Source of the DNA: Celerinatantimonas diazotrophica
Lineage (GTDB): Bacteria > Pseudomonadota > Gammaproteobacteria > Enterobacterales > Celerinatantimonadaceae
Direction: 5' to 3'
NCBI RefSeq assembly: GCF_004339545.1
Contig: NZ_SMGD01000011.1
Location: 434,001 to 498,000, forward strand
DNA: 64,000 nucleotides
This document shows positions 2,468 to 9,595 of this stretch, one piece after another (position 1 is the first letter of the stretch; every line of letters starts with the position of its first letter). Below the pieces are notes generated by a model. It was given only the letters and a program-made list of their open reading frames with translations. It did not search any database and was not told the origin of the DNA. A program made the position numbers and the translations under genes.

Positions 2468-3979
2468 TTAGTTTGCTGAATGAGTTTTCGTCTGAACAAC
2501 CTGCCCCGTATTCGGATCGAGAATGAGTGGCTGAGCCTGTCTCTTTGTAAAATCAAATAAACTTAATAGTGAGCCAGCATCAGCGACATCCCCTTGCGAA
2601 AGGGTTCCTAATCGCCAGTTGTTCTCAATAAAACGAATGATAGAGCGCTGATCTAACAAATGATGATCCACATAATTGACTCTGGCATATGGCGAAATCG
2701 CCAAAAATGGCACTCTGGGACCAAATCCCTGTTGTCCTTTCTGGTTACTATTGGCATTTTTCAACGGATTAACATGATCATAAAACCCACCGGAATCAGT
2801 ATAAGTAATCACAATGGCCATGTGTTTCCACTGCGGTAACTTCTGCAATTGATTAATTATTTTTACCAGAAATTTTTGCTCATCCAATGGGCTGGAATAA
2901 TCAGCGCCCCCATTACTTGCTGATTTCGCTTTGATAAAGCTGACCGCTGGTAATTGATCCTTTTTAGCTAACTGATAAAACACTTTAAGATCATATTGGT
3001 GGTTGGCTTGATCTGCAGAACCTACCGAAGCTAAATGATATGGACTTAAATGATGTGGATTCGCTGTAGATTCAAAATACTGAAATGGATTTAAATGCGG
3101 CAGATAATCAAAAGAACGCTTACCAAAGGCATTCTTACTTTTACTATCACAGCGGGCCACTTCATTTTTCACACTCGTTGGCGCAAATCCGCCCTGAAAC
3201 CACCCCCAACTCACATGATGCTTATCGAGCAGATTGCCGATATTTTGCCCACTTAAGTACACTCGCCCGTCCCGAATCGTCGGGGCCAATAGCGCATTTT
3301 GCGCATTTTCAATGTGATCATACGAACAGTCATCAAAACGTGGATCAAAATCATCGGTGATCTGTTTAGCCATTAACCCTCTGGTATCATCGGGCCATGC
3401 TGGGCCACTACGCGCCGCAATTAAATTAATCGCCCCTGTCGTAGCAGCACCAAAATCCAACGTATAAAAGTTATCACTCATGGCATAGTGCTGTGCATAA
3501 TTCCACAGCGCCGTGACCGTATTACCATCGTAATAACCCATCACCTGACGCGTACATGCTTTCGATGTTTTGTTAGCCGTATTCTGAACAAACTTATCGA
3601 CTAAGCCGCCATCATAAGCGCTAATTTTTGCATCATATTGACTATTTTGCGCGCAAGGAACGATGGCCCGGCTTAACCGATAGGGCGCGATTTGATTCGG
3701 ATTATGCCTCAGTAAAGCCTTTGACAATCCGTTGACAGGGGGCGTGTTCTGCTGTGCATGAAAAACACGCTCGCCTTTACGATTCTGAGCCTTGGGATAA
3801 GTAGCAAAATAACGGTCAAACGATGTGCCTTCATCCACGATCACCACCAGATGCTTAATGGGAGTGGTCGTAGCACGAGTCTGCGACCAAACCTGTGGGG
3901 CATTTGGATCTTTTGCAGCACATCCTTGCAAAAGGACACCCAATAAGCAGCCAGCCAACGAAAATTTAAAGGTATTCAT
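2468..3979 (-). CDS. AcpA/phospholipase-C family lipoprotein, paralogue 1 (active site degenerate)
   Basis: This belongs to the phosphoesterase family (Pfam PF04185) of AcpA acid phosphatase and bacterial phospholipase C. I place the start at the ATG at 3979 because it opens a lipoprotein signal (lipobox LLQGC, Cys20); the frame itself extends upstream to 4060. The fold landmarks are present: IKHLVVIVDEGTSFDRYF, MGYYDGNTVTALWNYAQ, STANPHHL and FYDHVNPL. By comparison with AcpA (metal ligands E43, N44, D386, D387; nucleophile S175, recalled from the literature), E50 is kept, the Asn is G51, the Ser is A179 and the first Asp is T394, with D395 kept. It is therefore probably not an ordinary phosphatase. 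It is the last gene of a six-gene minus-strand block that contains two more paralogues. Confidence 0.85.
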   Translation of the reverse strand: MNTFKFSLAGCLLGVLLQGCAAKDPNAPQVWSQTRATTTPIKHLVVIVDEGTSFDRYFATYPKAQNRKGERVFHAQQNTPPVNGLSKALLRHNPNQIAPYRLSRAIVPCAQNSQYDAKISAYDGGLVDKFVQNTANKTSKACTRQVMGYYDGNTVTALWNYAQHYAMSDNFYTLDFGAATTGAINLIAARSGPAWPDDTRGLMAKQITDDFDPRFDDCSYDHIENAQNALLAPTIRDGRVYLSGQNIGNLLDKHHVSWGWFQGGFAPTSVKNEVARCDSKSKNAFGKRSFDYLPHLNPFQYFESTANPHHLSPYHLASVGSADQANHQYDLKVFYQLAKKDQLPAVSFIKAKSASNGGADYSSPLDEQKFLVKIINQLQKLPQWKHMAIVITYTDSGGFYDHVNPLKNANSNQKGQQGFGPRVPFLAISPYARVNYVDHHLLDQRSIIRFIENNWRLGTLSQGDVADAGSLLSLFDFTKRQAQPLILDPNTGQVVQTKTHSAN

Positions 3980-4137
3980 GTGCAATCTACATCGTCCAAT
4001 TTGAATAAGAAAGATATCAATAATTGGCACTAATGATAACAAGCTTAATCTCATGAACAAACATAAATTGCTCTCAATCGCCTTAAGCTATTTAAGCTTG
4101 CTGTTTGCACTTGTTCACAACTAAGTCATCTATCGCT

Positions 4138-5532
4138 TCATGGCTTTTGATTAAAATCAAACATCGAGCGCAACGAGTGAGCATAGCGATCAGGCGTAGC
4201 TTGTCCCAAGTAGCCCAGCTGCCAGTTCGTTTCAATGAAGCGCAAAACTGAACTTTGATCGAGCATCTTGTGCTCAACATAGTTATGTTTAGCCCATTTG
4301 GAGATCACTAAAAAAGGCAACCTTGGCCCGTAGCCATTGCCTAACATCGATTTAGCGGCGCGAGGAGGCGTGATATGGTCGTACCAACCGTTGGCACTGC
4401 TCCACTCCAGCATCACTGCGGTTGTAGACCATTGCTTAGTGTTTTTAAGATGACTTATCACTTGGCGCAAAAAAGCTTGCTCATCTAGTGGCGAAGAGGT
4501 TCCCACATGACCGTTATGAGCATGATCAGCGAACACAAAACTGACCGCAGGCAACTGGTTATGTTCAGTAGCCCACCACAGCAGTGACAAATCATATTGG
4601 TGATGTGCGGGACCATCATTGCCTAAATTAGCATGACTCTTGGGCGGCACATGGTGCCTATTTGCAGTTGATGCGAAATATTGAAAGGGATCGTCGTTAC
4701 TGCGATAAGCCGCTACTAAGGATCCCGCCTGATTCATGACTCGCTTATTCATAACTATTGTGCCATCAGCGCGATATGAACTGGGTTTAAATCCACCAAT
4801 AAAGGCGCCCCAACTCACCTGATGGGCGCTTAATAGATCACCAATATTAGGGCGTTGTAATGATACTTTAAAGCGTCCTTTAGAAGCATCATCATAAAGC
4901 GGCGGATTATTCCCCAGCAGTTCATCTTTATAACTAACCCCCGGTAAGACTTTTGGCATGATTCCTTGATTCACCCCAGCAATAATGTCTATCTGCCCTC
5001 CGGTGACAGTTGCATACTCGCTGGCAAAAAAGTGATCGGCTAATGCATAGTGTTGGGCATATCCCCATATCGCACTGAGCGTATTGCCATCATAATAGCC
5101 CATCACCGACTGCGGAAAACAACCATCGTCATTGATCGCATTCGGTCCCTGATCTTCCTGCCAGATAAACATATTATTGAGACCGTGGTTATAGGCACGC
5201 TGTTGTGCAATTACGCCATAGCCAAGGTCACAGGTCGGCTGACCAGGCGCCATTCGATAGGGGTTGGTGAGGTTCGGATTATGTGTCAGTAACGCTGGAG
5301 TAAAACCAGCCACTGCCGGTGTATCTTTACGCGCATGAAAAGCCACTTCAGTCGGATTATTCTGCGCATGAGGGTAAATACCAAAATAGCGATCAAAACT
5401 TTCATCTTGGAGCACCACGACCACCACATGCTTAATTGGCGTCTGCGTAGCCACCGCTTCGGCCATAGCAGCCCTAGCAAATGAGCTAACCAAGAGCAGC
5501 GATACGAGCCAACCACGTTTAATACCCACCAT
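4138..5532 (-). CDS. AcpA/phospholipase-C family exported protein, paralogue 2 (catalytic residues lost)
   Basis: This is the second member of the phosphoesterase family in the block. It has an ordinary secretory signal (MVGIKRGWLVSLLLVSSFARAAMA) instead of a lipobox. Conserved landmarks are TPIKHVVVVVLQDESFDRYF, VMGYYDGNTLSAIWGYAQHYA, STANRHHVPP and GWYDHITPP. Every catalytic position I can align is changed: the E-N metal pair is Q42-D43, the nucleophilic Ser is V176, and the D-D pair is S378-S379. The fold is likely kept without phosphatase chemistry. The start overlaps the end of the upstream P19-like gene by 14 bases, with an AGGA site inside that gene, so the two are translationally coupled. 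A binding or scaffold role is an inference only. Confidence 0.85.
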   Translation of the reverse strand: MVGIKRGWLVSLLLVSSFARAAMAEAVATQTPIKHVVVVVLQDESFDRYFGIYPHAQNNPTEVAFHARKDTPAVAGFTPALLTHNPNLTNPYRMAPGQPTCDLGYGVIAQQRAYNHGLNNMFIWQEDQGPNAINDDGCFPQSVMGYYDGNTLSAIWGYAQHYALADHFFASEYATVTGGQIDIIAGVNQGIMPKVLPGVSYKDELLGNNPPLYDDASKGRFKVSLQRPNIGDLLSAHQVSWGAFIGGFKPSSYRADGTIVMNKRVMNQAGSLVAAYRSNDDPFQYFASTANRHHVPPKSHANLGNDGPAHHQYDLSLLWWATEHNQLPAVSFVFADHAHNGHVGTSSPLDEQAFLRQVISHLKNTKQWSTTAVMLEWSSANGWYDHITPPRAAKSMLGNGYGPRLPFLVISKWAKHNYVEHKMLDQSSVLRFIETNWQLGYLGQATPDRYAHSLRSMFDFNQKP

Positions 5533-6040
5533 GTTTGCCTGTTCCTAAATAATCAAATTGGTAATGGCGCACAAATGGCTGCCACCATGGATAAACGCCT
5601 TTTTGCGCTTCGCTCAGCAAAAACATCCCATGATCACTGGGTGGCTGATAATAGTTGGTCAGCCGGTAATGCCCGGGACCATCGAGTTTGATATTCATTC
5701 CATAGTGCGGTCCGCCCTGTGCAACCATCGGCAAATAATCACCTTCATCGCGCCAATTCGAGCCGTCTTTCGTGAGCACAAAGTGAATTTTAAGCCCTGG
5801 GATCCAAGCTGTGGCTGGGAATCCTTGCGGATTTCCTGGCAACGCATGAACATCCGTTTCAAGATGGATGTCAGCGTGTTTAGGCATGCCTTTTTTCTTA
5901 GGTGACATAATGACCCCTTGAATATAACTGGCGCCAACCTTCATCCCATGGATACCGATATCGGGACCGAATACGACATCCATTGCCATAATCTGTCCCG
6001 AAAACAATGCGGTGATGAGCAACAAGCAGAAACGGATCAT
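5519..6040 (-). CDS. P19/Tp34-family periplasmic metal-binding protein (copy a)
   Basis: This is a periplasmic protein of the iron-transport P19/Tp34/FtrA family (PF10634), which binds copper or other metals and serves ferrous or ferric iron uptake. It has a 19-residue signal (to IMA), then the family core: ADIHLETDVHA, IPGLKIHFVLTK and YLPMVAQGGPHYG. The ligand positions known from P19 appear as H59, E61, M105 and H112, but the fourth ligand (P19 His132) aligns with L142. Its start overlaps the stop of copy b by four bases (ATGA), and its end overlaps paralogue 2 of the phosphoesterases. Tight coupling in the block suggests the products act together outside the cytoplasm. The exact metal is unknown. 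Confidence 0.8.
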   Translation of the reverse strand: MIRFCLLLITALFSGQIMAMDVVFGPDIGIHGMKVGASYIQGVIMSPKKKGMPKHADIHLETDVHALPGNPQGFPATAWIPGLKIHFVLTKDGSNWRDEGDYLPMVAQGGPHYGMNIKLDGPGHYRLTNYYQPPSDHGMFLLSEAQKGVYPWWQPFVRHYQFDYLGTGKHGGY

Positions 6041-6552
6041 TGTTGAACTCCCTGTAATGCAGTGATAGCGACGATTTGCCCATTGGCAGCAACCTGCATC
6101 TGATATTTATGTATAAATGGATGCCACCAAGGTGCTACGCCAGTGGCTTTATCTATATGGCGATAAAAGCCATTGTGCTCAGGCGAAATATAATGAATCG
6201 TCAGAAAGTAACGTCCGGGTTGCGTGAGCTGAATGACATGGCCATACTCGGGCCCAGTTAACGTCAGTCGCATCGGCAGTTGTCCCTGAGTTTGCGCTTT
6301 AGTAGCTAAACGCTTTAAGTGATAACTCACCTGACAATAGGGAATAAAATCGTTGGTAATAAAGCCATTTGGGTTATAGGCCTGTGCTTTTAGACGAGTC
6401 CATAACACCCAATGGTTAGTTTCAAAACGAATGCCTGATTGAATATGCATACCATCTTGATCACTAGATGAAAGCGTCACCGACTGTTTGGCTAAAACGC
6501 CACTTGAGAACAAAACCAACATGAAACTGACGCAATAAATAAAATAACGCAT
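6037..6552 (-). CDS. P19/Tp34-family periplasmic protein (copy b, divergent ligands)
   Basis: This is a paralogue of the adjacent P19-like gene, recognised by a signal peptide (to VLA at residue 21), NPNGF, a QLPMRLTLTGPEYGH segment aligned with the LPM..GPHYG core, and the shared GVAPWWHPFIHKY ending. The metal positions differ from copy a: His and Glu of the H-L-E motif are V49 and W51, Met is kept (M94), the second His is E102, and the C-terminal His that copy a lacks is present (H132). The two tandem copies therefore carry complementary halves of the P19 ligand set. It sits between the polyferredoxin gene (11-base gap) and copy a (4-base overlap). Confidence 0.72.
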   Translation of the reverse strand: MRYFIYCVSFMLVLFSSGVLAKQSVTLSSSDQDGMHIQSGIRFETNHWVLWTRLKAQAYNPNGFITNDFIPYCQVSYHLKRLATKAQTQGQLPMRLTLTGPEYGHVIQLTQPGRYFLTIHYISPEHNGFYRHIDKATGVAPWWHPFIHKYQMQVAANGQIVAITALQGVQQ

Positions 6553-6563
6553 GATTTAACCAA

Positions 6564-7955
6564 TCAACTCATAGTAAACGAAGGAAAAATAGTCCACATC
6601 GTGGCAACGGCCAGCAACAGACAGCCAGCCAGCACTGATACCCAAGCCAAAAGTAATGGCCGTACCGGTAACTGATACTGCTTAAGCCAACCGTTTGCAT
6701 TAAACACATTAAATGAAAAAGCAATGACCAACAGAATGAGTAAGATAATGATCTCACTTGGCCCGATAACCACTTTCAGTGAACTGAATAATGCAGTCCC
6801 TAAACCGAGCAAAATCCCCAGCATCGCTAGGGGAGCCAACTGATAGCCAAACAAACTCATGCGCTCGATCAGGGTTCCTGAATGAATCTTCTCTAGTGAT
6901 TTAGCCCCAAAGTAACTACACCCAATTAAGAACAGCGCGAATAAAACAGCGACAGAGCACATAAATGAACTAATTGCGATAAAATCCAGCCACATATAGT
7001 GCTGTCCCAGAACATCACTTTCATTCATTAACCAACTAGGGCCTGGCCTCAACGCCCATAACCAGTGATGCGCTAATGCCCAATGCCCCAGCGCTTGACG
7101 CCAGCTGACGAACCAGGGGGAACTGGGCCAAACAAATCCTGCAATAGCAAGCCCTGGCGCTAACCAGATAAACCAAAGTTCAGAAAAACACGGGGCATGT
7201 TGCTCAATATGGGCGACCTCAGAGCCGACCTCTCGCACCTCAATCGCCATTCCACCGCGAGATTGCGGCTTAACACAGCGCATACATTTAATACAGTGAC
7301 GTGAGCTTTGTTTCGAGCGCAGTTCAATATTGGTCGGGCACATACCGTCATCACGATAACCTTCTGCCCCGCCGCTAGGCTGCTTGGCGAAAACATTCAG
7401 CCGACCGAGCCTAGAAAAAACTCCAAGGACTGAACCAATCGGACACAAGTGACGACACCAAACTCGCCGGCCCCGCCCTTTTTCAGAGCCGAATAACAGA
7501 CCACAGCCAATCGCGAGCGCGAAAATAATGCCAAACAACACCAATGCGGCATGCAGGTCATCACGCACATCGAGAGTCTGAGCCCAAATGGTCACGATTA
7601 AAAAGCTGCAAGCGGTCGTCATTGGATGTTTCAGCCAGCGCGGTAAACGAACATGAGCGCCCAGATGACTGACCCATTCGCTGGTTGCGCCCAATGGACA
7701 AAAAAAGCCACACCAAAGTCGTCCTACCAGCAAAACAGATAGCAATGTCCCGGGGTACCAGATCGCCCATAAAGCCCATTCGCTAAAAAGCTGCGCGTTA
7801 TTCCACGGGGTTTGCCAGGCGTACTGAGGCACCGTCAAAAACAGAGGAACAATCAATAACGCCGCCAAAGCAACTAACATAACCAACTGGAAATAACGCG
7901 TATAACGAGCCAGTTGGACAAATTTCTGGCTCAATTTTGCTTGAAGAACACGCAC
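6564..7955 (-). CDS. FtrD/NapH-like 4Fe-4S membrane polyferredoxin
   Basis: This is an integral membrane electron-transfer protein. It has several hydrophobic segments, two CxxxCP motifs (CGFFCPLG and CRHLCPIG) and a cytoplasmic cluster motif CIKCMRCVKP with a further Cys in MCPTNIEL, as in NapH, CcoG-like proteins and FtrD of the FtrABCD iron system. The start is a GTG at 7955 with GGAGG six bases upstream; the nearby ATG is in another frame. In FtrABCD the polyferredoxin supplies or removes electrons during iron uptake with a P19-type protein. Here the two P19 genes follow it directly, but I find no FtrC-like permease or cupredoxin in the block. The electron-transfer role is well supported; an iron role is inferred from the neighbours. 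Confidence 0.8.
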   Translation of the reverse strand: MRVLQAKLSQKFVQLARYTRYFQLVMLVALAALLIVPLFLTVPQYAWQTPWNNAQLFSEWALWAIWYPGTLLSVLLVGRLWCGFFCPLGATSEWVSHLGAHVRLPRWLKHPMTTACSFLIVTIWAQTLDVRDDLHAALVLFGIIFALAIGCGLLFGSEKGRGRRVWCRHLCPIGSVLGVFSRLGRLNVFAKQPSGGAEGYRDDGMCPTNIELRSKQSSRHCIKCMRCVKPQSRGGMAIEVREVGSEVAHIEQHAPCFSELWFIWLAPGLAIAGFVWPSSPWFVSWRQALGHWALAHHWLWALRPGPSWLMNESDVLGQHYMWLDFIAISSFMCSVAVLFALFLIGCSYFGAKSLEKIHSGTLIERMSLFGYQLAPLAMLGILLGLGTALFSSLKVVIGPSEIIILLILLVIAFSFNVFNANGWLKQYQLPVRPLLLAWVSVLAGCLLLAVATMWTIFPSFTMS

Positions 7956-8014
7956 ATGACCCTCCTAAGTTTCAGCCAGAGTTGTTAAGCTCTGACTGAA
8001 ACCAGTACCACTAA

Positions 8015-9505
8015 CTAAGAGGCTTTTTCACCGGTTTTAACATTCAAGAAAATAGGTTTGGCTTTGCCACCATCTTTAAAGTCAAACATGTTATTGAGAA
8101 CCCCGGCATGTGAATCCATCGAGTTTTTCAAACGACCTAAGTGCCAATTATCTTCAATGAAGCGAATGATTGAACTCTGCCCTGTCAATGTGTGATCAAC
8201 AAAGTTCTGTTTGGCATAAGGTGAGATCACTAACAATGGCAACCGTGGACCATAACCTGCACGTCCCGTTTGATTAGCAAAGTGGTTTTTAGGTGGCATA
8301 ACGTGATCGTAATAACCGTCCGAATCATCATAAGCGATGATAATCGCCATGTTTTTCCACTGCGGTAGTTTTTCCAAGCGGTTAATCGTGCGAACCAAAA
8401 AGTGCTGCTCATCGATTGGGTTTGAATAGCCAGCATGGCCATCTTCAATACCTTTGGGTTTCAAAAAGCTTACAGCAGGTAAATTCCCCATCCGCGCCGC
8501 TTTCCAGAACGTTTTTAAACTGTACTGATGGTTAGCTTGGTCAGTTTGCCCAACTTTAGCGATACTCGTTGGTGGCAAATGGTGAGGGTTGGCGGTGGAC
8601 TGATAATACTGGAAGGGTTCGTGATGCGGTATGTAATCGGATTTTTCTCCGCCAAAAACATTGGTACTTTTAGCGCCACAACGGGCCACACCATTATGGT
8701 AACTGGTCGGGTCGAACCCGCCTTCAAACCAACCCCAGCTGACTTTGTTGGCATTTAACAAATTCCCGACATTCTGCCCTTTGACATAAACTAAGCCATT
8801 CTGCACAGATGTAGCCAATTCAGCCCCTTTCGCTTTTTCCACATCTTTATATGAACAGTCATCAAAGCGGGGATCAATATCGGTGACCAGATTGCCCTGT
8901 TCCACACCTGGGGTTGTCAAAGGATAAGTGGGGCCTGTTTGCCCGGCAACCAAGTTCAATGCACCCGGAGTCGATGGGCCAAAGATAGTACCGTATGAGT
9001 TATCACTCATTGCAAAGTTCTGAGCATAATTCCACAGTGCCGTGACCGTATTCCCATCGTAATAGCCCATCACCTGACGCTGACATTGTCGAGAACTCTT
9101 GTTCCCTGTGGCACTGACGAATTGATTCACGAGTCCCCCATTATAAGCGTCTTGTTCCGCTTCATAACCATGGTCTTGATCACACGGCTCCTTATTTCGC
9201 ACCATCCGAAATGGATTATATTGATTTGGATTATGCGTCAATAACTCCGGAGTCAACCCATTCACCGCTGGCGTATCCGCCTTGGCATGAAAGGCCGGCT
9301 CACCTTTAGGATTCGTGGCGTGTGGGTAGGTTCCAAAGTAGTGATCAAAGGAAATATTTTCGTCAAAAATCACCACCACATGCTTAATCGGTGTGGCCGT
9401 TTTTTTGGGTTGAGTCCAAGCATTTGTGGTTGAACTCGGATCGGCACATCCCTGTAAAAGACCTGCAACAGCTAGCGCCAATAATGATAATTTGCAAAGC
9501 TTCAT
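8015..9505 (-). CDS. AcpA/phospholipase-C family lipoprotein, paralogue 3 (active site intact)
   Basis: This is an acid phosphatase/phospholipase-C family enzyme (PF04185), a predicted lipoprotein (lipobox LLQGC, Cys20). It is the first gene of the six-gene block and the only one of the three paralogues with a complete site: E49-N50 in FDENISFDHYFGTYP, S178 in FGPSTPGALN, and D393-D394 in AYDDSDGYYDH. These match the AcpA metal ligands and nucleophile in identity and approximate position. It probably hydrolyses phosphomonoesters or phosphodiesters at the cell surface or in the periplasm. GGACGAT lies before the ATG. An inverted repeat about 90 bases upstream may be an operator. The substrate is not evident. 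Confidence 0.88.
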   Translation of the reverse strand: MKLCKLSLLALAVAGLLQGCADPSSTTNAWTQPKKTATPIKHVVVIFDENISFDHYFGTYPHATNPKGEPAFHAKADTPAVNGLTPELLTHNPNQYNPFRMVRNKEPCDQDHGYEAEQDAYNGGLVNQFVSATGNKSSRQCQRQVMGYYDGNTVTALWNYAQNFAMSDNSYGTIFGPSTPGALNLVAGQTGPTYPLTTPGVEQGNLVTDIDPRFDDCSYKDVEKAKGAELATSVQNGLVYVKGQNVGNLLNANKVSWGWFEGGFDPTSYHNGVARCGAKSTNVFGGEKSDYIPHHEPFQYYQSTANPHHLPPTSIAKVGQTDQANHQYSLKTFWKAARMGNLPAVSFLKPKGIEDGHAGYSNPIDEQHFLVRTINRLEKLPQWKNMAIIIAYDDSDGYYDHVMPPKNHFANQTGRAGYGPRLPLLVISPYAKQNFVDHTLTGQSSIIRFIEDNWHLGRLKNSMDSHAGVLNNMFDFKDGGKAKPIFLNVKTGEKAS

Positions 9506-9595
9506 GAAAATCGTCCGTCTTTAAGAATAAATTAGTTTGAGGCTCAAACTAAACTAGTCTTCGAAGATGACAATAAAGTGAACGTCAAGATAGGC

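Follow-up and report, generated by a model that had tools for sequence, protein, structure and literature searches.

An operon of Celerinatantimonas diazotrophica that combines AcpA-like proteins lacking the metal site with a P19 pair of divided site residues

Introduction

Among eukaryotic kinases and tyrosine phosphatases, pseudoenzymes have received much study. STYX and MK-STYX have the protein tyrosine phosphatase fold, which is unrelated to the fold of the acid phosphatase AcpA. These eukaryotic pseudophosphatases exemplify the concept of non-catalytic members retained beside active ones, which would here extend to a bacterial envelope. Searches of an open-licence library brought up no account of a pseudophosphatase from the AcpA/phospholipase C superfamily.

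A locus of Celerinatantimonas diazotrophica raises the question of which role remains for AcpA homologues that have lost most of the active site and are encoded beside an intact relative. The window analysed comprises 64,000 nucleotides (contig NZ_SMGD01000011.1, positions 434,001 to 498,000). A preliminary description had placed three AcpA-like paralogues side by side in it, and their coordinates, reading frames and named residues were borne out by HMMER alignment to Francisella AcpA (PDB 2d1g). The trio as such proved incomplete: since a polyferredoxin and two P19-type proteins, with a residue division of their own, are encoded between the AcpA-like genes, the whole operon constitutes the unit to be explained.

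Operon layout and genomic context

The features of the operon, all on the minus strand, are as follows (P19 residues in FetP numbering).

Pho-box-like direct repeat, 9567..9584, minus strand: CGTTCAC-TTTA-TTGTCAT, with a period of 11 bp, beginning 79 bp before the start of P3
P3, 8015..9505, minus strand: AcpA-like acid phosphatase with 9/9 site residues and a lipobox-like LLQGC signal (by eye)
FER, 6564..7955, minus strand: membrane polyferredoxin with a Fer4_5 match, CxxCxxC kept
P19b, 6037..6552, minus strand: PF10634 protein, H127 present, H44, E46 and H97 absent
P19a, 5519..6040, minus strand: PF10634 protein, H44, E46, M90 and H97 present, H127 absent
P2, 4138..5532, minus strand: AcpA homologue without metal site (site Q-D-Y-V-N-D-H-S-S), presumed pseudophosphatase
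P1, 2468..3979, minus strand: AcpA homologue without the site (E-G-S-A-H-L-G-T-D), with a lipobox-like LLQGC signal (by eye)

The genes are arranged in the order P3, FER, P19b, P19a, P2 and P1; P19a shares 4 bp with P19b and 14 bp with P2. The order P3-FER-P19b-P19a-P2 recurs in G001, a genome of the same genus, in two genomes of Marinomonas spartinae and in M. flavescens, and P1 is confined to C. diazotrophica among these five genomes. For P1, an alternative TTG start is possible at 4060, and a simple scan of the minus strand revealed no terminator between P2 and P1. P1, P2 and P3 are the only PF04185 genes found in the C. diazotrophica genome. The similarity of FER to the NapH subfamily falls below the cut-off, and its FtrD-like label derives from context. 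A phytase-like gene was considered as a part of the operon and dropped, as only the two M. spartinae genomes have it ahead of the operon.

Active-site residues of the AcpA-like proteins

All three proteins match PF04185, the acid phosphatase/phospholipase C superfamily, over their full length, with E-values of 4.9e-66 for P1, 2.1e-55 for P2 and 1.2e-81 for P3 (223.8, 188.8 and 275.1 bits; cut-off 23), and they share full-length similarity with Francisella AcpA (E 1e-145, 1e-99 and 7e-168, respectively, in the HMMER alignment to 2d1g). Read in the column order E43, N44, H106, S175, H287, H288, H350, D386 and D387 (AcpA numbering), P3 presents ENHSHHHDD and thus every site residue, whereas P1 (EGSAHLGTD) keeps three of the nine and P2 (QDYVNDHSS) a single one. 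Three of the four substrate histidines are lost from each, namely H106, H288 and H350 from P1 and H106, H287 and H288 from P2. Unlike Francisella AcpA, P1 and P2 are therefore devoid of most metal ligands and substrate residues, and they share their operon with P19 proteins.

Alignment with AcpA and its homologues revealed how uncommon this loss is: of 82 rows compared, among them the five of the P3 type, 81 retain E43, N44, D386 and D387, and the remaining one is gapped at E43/N44. This count omits L006, L007, L009, L012, L013, L015, L016, L017 and L078|13433, distant PLC-like sequences or duplicates, in each of which E43, N44 and D386 are preserved and position 387 is D or E. The changes are concentrated at the site: P1 is altered in 6/9 site columns compared with 10/106 other columns with a conservation of 95% or more (Fisher p 2e-4), and P2 in 8/9 compared with 23/106 (p 1e-4). 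When the site is reduced to the five of its columns that reach this conservation threshold, the enrichment has a p of ~0.01 for P1 and P2 each.

The earlier claim that catalytic residues of P1 and P2 are replaced is confirmed, and all four metal-ligand positions are changed in four of the five P2 rows (M. flavescens P2 keeps N44). Loss of the nucleophile is not conserved in P2: the valine at the S175 position is peculiar to the C. diazotrophica protein, and the four orthologues carry S, T, T and T. As judged from these residues, P1 and P2 are homologues outside the PF04185/AcpA catalytic class, and as phosphatases they are very probably pseudoenzymes. P2, most of whose ligand positions are occupied by amide or hydroxyl residues, would be unable to hold the catalytic metal; its pocket contains an invariant Q, Y and H.

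This same pocket (Q42, Y105 and H342 in 5/5 genomes), together with new clade-wide residues including H167 and W124 and with the S or T at the nucleophile position in 4/5 P2 rows, could also denote that P2, and possibly P1, has kept an enzymatic function, based on a different chemistry or on catalytic residues in new places. Such retained activity is improbable in view of the altered metal-ligand positions and of findings on SapM, an AcpA-related protein, in which single alanine changes at the equivalents of E43, N44, S175, D386, D387, H288 and H350 abolish activity, alanine at the H287 equivalent merely lowering it (PMC6635428).

Origin and selection of P2 and P1

The preliminary description had further regarded P1 and P2 as selected, non-catalytic proteins of retained fold, a view that the present data support. 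The predicted models agree with 2d1g (Z 57.1, rmsd 1.6 over 450 for P1; Z 51.5, rmsd 1.8 over 427 for P2), the alignments fed to the predictor having contained AcpA relatives; the fold of P3 was judged by sequence only. With respect to selection, a P2 without the metal site occupies the same operon position in all five genomes, and its orthologues in four other genomes rule out a local curiosity. Between the two M. spartinae genomes, omega of P2 amounts to 0.07 (13 nonsynonymous and 47 synonymous differences), a value that reflects purifying selection and excludes the P19a overlap and upstream sequence (0.113 when those are included). The corresponding values are 0.048 for P3, 0.098 for FER, 0.045 for P19b and 0.027 for P19a. 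Since synonymous sites are mostly saturated between genera, dN/dS was derived from this pair only, and P1, being devoid of an orthologue in the four other operon-bearing genomes, has no such value.

These data also bear on the reading of P1 and P2 as duplicates that are being lost by drift, which is very improbable overall and strongly disfavoured for P2 by its omega and its constant place in the operon, even though 19-23 of 106 conserved non-site columns are altered in the P2 clade. For P1, the restriction to one genome and the branch length of 1.31 would be compatible with drift, against which stand an open frame of 503 codons, the concentration of its changes at the site and the preserved predicted fold. 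In the tree, which leaves out the nine distant or duplicate prefixes plus L083, P1 groups with P3 on this long branch, a placement that is unsure given the quick method. P2 and P1 seem to stem from separate events, P2 resembling an old copy and P1 a newer one, both beside the working phosphatase P3.

Divided metal-site residues in the P19 pair

P19 is taken here to be a dimer with its metal site at the interface and ligands from both subunits; in the literature searched, no statement on ligands drawn from both subunits was found. P19a and P19b match PF10634 with 139.5 and 87 bits (cut-off 21), the same profile as P19/FetP/FtrA (PDB 3lzl, 3nrp, 8vv5 and 7r4z). In all five genomes the site residues are divided between them, P19a carrying H44, E46, M90 and H97 without H127 (4/5 residues) and P19b carrying H127 without H44, E46 and H97 (1/5); in P19b, M90 may be recovered through a PM motif if one residue of shift is allowed. 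Their union thus yields the full site set. All five residues are present in 43 of the 44 other distinct P19 rows (identical rows counted once, hits weaker than E 1e-8 not counted). Several PDB sequences differ from wild type at these positions and are presumably site mutants, namely 5i0x at M90, 5i0y at E46 and 8vv6 at the H127 equivalent. Because nearly all other rows keep the complete set, P19a and P19b are quite likely to function as an obligate heterodimer in which the two chains share a single metal site. In contrast to P19/FetP/FtrA, the site residues are here divided between two paralogues of one operon, and an adjoining FTR1 permease is missing.

Putative upstream regulation

The plain E. 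coli-style Pho consensus yielded p-values of 0.31 for the C. diazotrophica operon, 0.12 for G001, 0.15 and 0.10 for M. spartinae and 0.01 for M. flavescens. The matrix used subsequently consists of eight half-sites chosen by eye from the pst upstream regions of four genomes; it was built after this weak result, so that its outcome is choice-dependent, and the three-repeat form was likewise chosen. So calibrated, the repeat upstream of P3 in C. diazotrophica has a p of 0.0025-0.0045, and a Pho-box-like repeat precedes the operon in 4/4 lineages tested (Fisher 5e-7 with two repeats, 3e-8 with three). For the four sites, respectively, 5, 2, 7 and 3 of 115 upstream controls reach an equally high score; these controls come from the same loci, may include spurious frames and probably include the P3 genes themselves. 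A separate Pho-like site ahead of P1 or FER was not detected, and a consensus scan for a Fur site upstream of P3 in the five genomes gave nothing clearly over shuffles (p 0.18 to 0.99). A candidate Pho box ahead of the operon (STATISTICALLY) is supported by these scores, and the operon is probably induced by phosphate starvation.

Comparison with ferrous-iron uptake systems

FtrABCD of Bordetella and Brucella and FetMP of E. coli and Campylobacter are ferrous-iron systems that have a P19-type protein in common with the operon, which differs from them by its AcpA proteins. FtrD is a polyferredoxin. The operon could be read as a common ferrous-iron uptake cluster of the P19/Ftr type, to which the AcpA-like genes belong as passengers or accessories, the phosphatase contributing to iron supply by removing phosphate from iron chelates. 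P19 adjoins a FER-like gene in 9/20 other loci of the class (3.3-kb loci) and FTR1 adjoins one in 2/6 larger regions, as this reading would have it; in addition, low-iron growth of Campylobacter requires P19/FetP (PMC10783030). However, the profile search found neither an FTR1 permease (FtrC/FetM) nor an FtrB-like cupredoxin in the operon, and the sole FTR1 found in C. diazotrophica is located elsewhere (C5:10050), beside imelysin, cupredoxin and DyP genes. A separate P19 lies by an FTR1-like permease in four of the five genomes, Pfam confirming FTR1 in both tested. Ordinary iron uptake is thus an unlikely explanation, given also that the P19 pair is non-canonical and that the site upstream is Pho-like, not Fur-like.

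Distribution of the module

In a family-level sample, the P2 type occurred in 2/12 genomes, C. diazotrophica and G001, and a profile scan of 394 genomes of the order returned only these two as P2-type or P19b-type, so that both types are found in company. P2-type scores ranged from 927 to 939 bits, followed by 469 (P3-type) and 291 (other genomes), and P19b-type scores from 303 to 320 bits, followed by 84; absence of either type was judged by these score gaps, residues being read only at loci with sequence examined. The P19b type was found in none of 369 genomes of the class beyond the five, and neither type was found beyond them among the best 80 named AcpA-like matches listed, where rarer cases may be missed. 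Three Marinomonas loci aside, P19 or FER was near AcpA-like genes in 0/76 other listed named loci, the flanks of which are often short; hence, as far as these flanks extend, the AcpA family at large needs no P19 or FER.

This distribution speaks against a further explanation, according to which P19a, P19b and FER form a metallation system that provides the AcpA enzyme with iron or another metal, P2 having the role of a chaperone. The shared operon and presumed common induction, the metal binding of the enzyme family and the nature of P19 as a periplasmic metal protein would all suit such a system, but AcpA-like genes elsewhere lack these neighbours in the listed loci, and metallation is considered a minor possibility.

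Proposed mechanism and significance

The reading preferred here, to which we assign a probability of roughly 55%, is an envelope module composed of the phosphatase P3, the non-catalytic P2 (with P1 as an extra in C. diazotrophica), a P19 heterodimer and a polyferredoxin, probably induced by phosphate starvation. In this module, P3 would hydrolyse phosphomonoesters and P2 would act as a binding or regulatory partner, for instance by holding a phosphorylated ligand or by docking P3 to the P19 pair; that P2 works with P3 or with the P19 pair has about an even chance. P19a/P19b and FER would link iron (or copper) handling to P3 hydrolysis, FER supplying or taking electrons at the membrane, and it is tentatively put forward that the module serves to couple phosphate to iron. 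A bolder and rather doubtful version envisages an undescribed envelope machine for phosphate starvation, in which the AcpA and P19 families, unrelated to each other, have each split into complementary paralogues that function solely as hetero-oligomers. P3 and P2 would together capture and hydrolyse phosphoesters, and P19a and P19b would build one composite metal site; the polyferredoxin would tie the assembly to the membrane, so that a single complex would handle both the release of phosphorus and the redox chemistry of iron.

Taken together, these features of the operon suggest an envelope system, so far uncharacterised, that connects the handling of phosphate with that of iron. For the P19 family, the residue division predicts how the metal site is built, a single paralogue being deficient and the pair competent. 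By bringing together a phosphatase, proteins that handle iron and a site of the Pho type, such an operon would provide a concrete handle on how these bacteria might cope with joint scarcity of phosphorus and iron.

Site residues of the three AcpA-like proteins

The genome encodes exactly three AcpA-like (PF04185) proteins according to a whole-genome search, and all three genes lie in the window as open frames of 503 (P1), 464 (P2) and 496 codons (P3), on the minus strand and at the coordinates assigned in the preliminary description. Between P3 and P2, profile matches place one polyferredoxin gene and two P19-like genes:

8015-9505, minus strand: P3, AcpA-like protein
6564-7955, minus strand: FER, Fer4_5 membrane polyferredoxin
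6037-6552, minus strand: P19b, PF10634 (P19/FetP/FtrA) protein
5519-6040, minus strand: P19a, PF10634 (P19/FetP/FtrA) protein
4138-5532, minus strand: P2, AcpA-like protein
2468-3979, minus strand: P1, AcpA-like protein

In Francisella AcpA, four ligands (E43, N44, D386 and D387) bind the metal, S175 acts as nucleophile, and the substrate is bound by H106, H287, H288 and H350. In the AcpA-related SapM, activity is abolished when a residue equivalent to one of the four metal ligands, to the nucleophile, to H288 or to H350 is changed to alanine, and is only reduced by the same change at the H287 equivalent (PMC6635428). Alignment to AcpA (2d1g), read in the order E43, N44, H106, S175, H287, H288, H350, D386 and D387, yields ENHSHHHDD for P3, EGSAHLGTD for P1 and QDYVNDHSS for P2, which confirms the replacements named previously.

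These losses concentrate at the site. The comparison set has 82 rows, 77 of them taken from other loci and five of P3 type (P3 included); all four metal ligands are intact in 81, and the remaining row has a gap at E43/N44. P1 has lost six of the nine site residues versus 10 of the 106 columns outside the site with 95% conservation or more, P2 eight of nine versus 23 of 106, and the P3-type rows none of nine. When the site is narrowed to its five columns of at least 95% conservation, the signal is weaker (p about 0.01 for P1 and P2; 0.07 for the P2 of Marinomonas flavescens).

Other AcpA-like relatives

Nitrososphaeraceae-type archaeal proteins (L041, L047, L060, L068, L081, L083) retain metal ligands and nucleophile, apart from a gap at E43/N44 in L083, and carry DV or DD at H287/H288, which on sequence grounds indicates a different substrate pocket. 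Acidobacterial proteins L042, L046, L048, L075 and L076 share H106N, S175T and H288Y, as if they formed a distinct substrate class.

Different histories of P2 and P1

P1 and P2 have two different histories. Among the matches listed, the P2 clade of the tree comprises five members, from this genome, a second genome of the genus (G001), two Marinomonas spartinae genomes (L020, L022) and M. flavescens (L021), none of which keeps more than one of the four metal ligands. In that order, E43 is replaced by Q in all five, N44 reads D/D/D/D/N, D386 S/S/N/N/N and D387 S/N/N/N/N. The nucleophile, previously described as replaced in P2, is indeed V in the window copy, yet the other four members have S, T, T and T; hence its loss is no feature of the clade. 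Q42, Y105 and H342 of the P2 pocket are invariant, and the AcpA fold is kept in predicted models of both P2 and P1. The two M. spartinae P2 genes differ by 13 nonsynonymous and 47 synonymous changes (omega 0.07), in agreement with the earlier proposal that P2 is selected rather than decaying. Among 394 genomes of the order, P2-type or P19b-type scores occur solely in the two Celerinatantimonas genomes and stand far above those of the next matches.

P1 is missing from G001, the two M. spartinae genomes and M. flavescens; these genomes carry exactly two PF04185 genes apiece. In the tree it clusters with the P3 lineage (support 96), on a long branch that renders this placement unsure.

A conserved operon with divided P19 site residues

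The order P3, FER, P19b, P19a, P2 is identical in G001 and the three Marinomonas loci; in the window, P19b and P19a overlap by 4 bp, and P19a and P2 by 14 bp. Among 79 named loci in the matches listed, P19 or FER genes neighbour an AcpA-like gene only in the three Marinomonas loci, a count confined to the flanks examined, which are shorter for many of the other loci. A phytase-like PF13449 gene immediately precedes the operon in one M. spartinae genome (L020:4388-5689) and lies at a matching distance in the second, with none in the remaining three genomes. By eye (window 8015-9505, L018, L020, L021), a lipobox-like LQGC signal is present in P3 and P1 of the window and in P3 of G001, while Marinomonas P3 proteins seemingly carry plain signal peptides; thus, anchoring of the enzyme may differ.

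Compared with FetP (3nrp), P19a keeps H44, E46, M90 and H97 but not H127, which is replaced by L, V, A, A or I. In P19b, H44 is replaced by V, E46 by W and H97 by E, and H127 is retained within RHIDKATGVAPWW, an invariant stretch; with a one-residue shift, the methionine of its conserved PM motif may occupy the M90 position. This division is present in five of five genomes; among 44 other distinct P19 rows, 43 carry the full set of five site residues. The deposited sequences 5i0x, 5i0y and 8vv6, changed from wild type at M90, E46 and the H127 equivalent, are presumably site mutants. In the P19 dimer, H127 is, as we assume, donated by the partner subunit; in that case, one complete site would be formed jointly by P19a and P19b.

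Upstream regulation and iron permease context

With a plain consensus, the Pho signal upstream of P3 is weak. A matrix derived from the sequences that precede pst in four of the operon-bearing genomes detects, in four lineages, a repeat of 11-bp period that starts about 70-112 bp upstream of P3 (p = 0.0045, 0.0005, 0.0175 and 0.006; Fisher 5e-7), where 5, 2, 7 and 3 of 115 control stretches, which probably include the P3 upstreams, score as high. No Fur-like site stands out upstream of P3.

G001 and three Marinomonas genomes (L150-L153) harbour a separate, canonical and complete P19 adjoining an FTR1-like permease gene, identified as FTR1 by Pfam in the two loci tested. A search of the C. diazotrophica genome found neither that P19 nor any P19-FTR1 pair; the one FTR1 that it did detect resides in an EfeUOB-like cluster (G000:C5:10044-13948) together with imelysin, cupredoxin and DyP peroxidase. 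Hence, iron handled by the module would need another permease for entry.

Proposed module

Searches of open-licence papers on AcpA-family pseudoenzymes, heterodimeric P19 and Pho control of AcpA-like genes turned up no description of such an operon; its parts are of known kinds and constitute no new category. The sequence comparisons establish the loss of site residues, their conservation pattern, selection on P2 and the division of the P19 residues. We propose that the operon encodes a phosphate-starvation envelope module, for which we infer contacts, ligand, electron flow and purpose: P3 would hydrolyze phosphoesters, P2 would act as a non-catalytic binding or regulatory partner, P19a and P19b would form a heterodimeric metal protein, and FER would move electrons.
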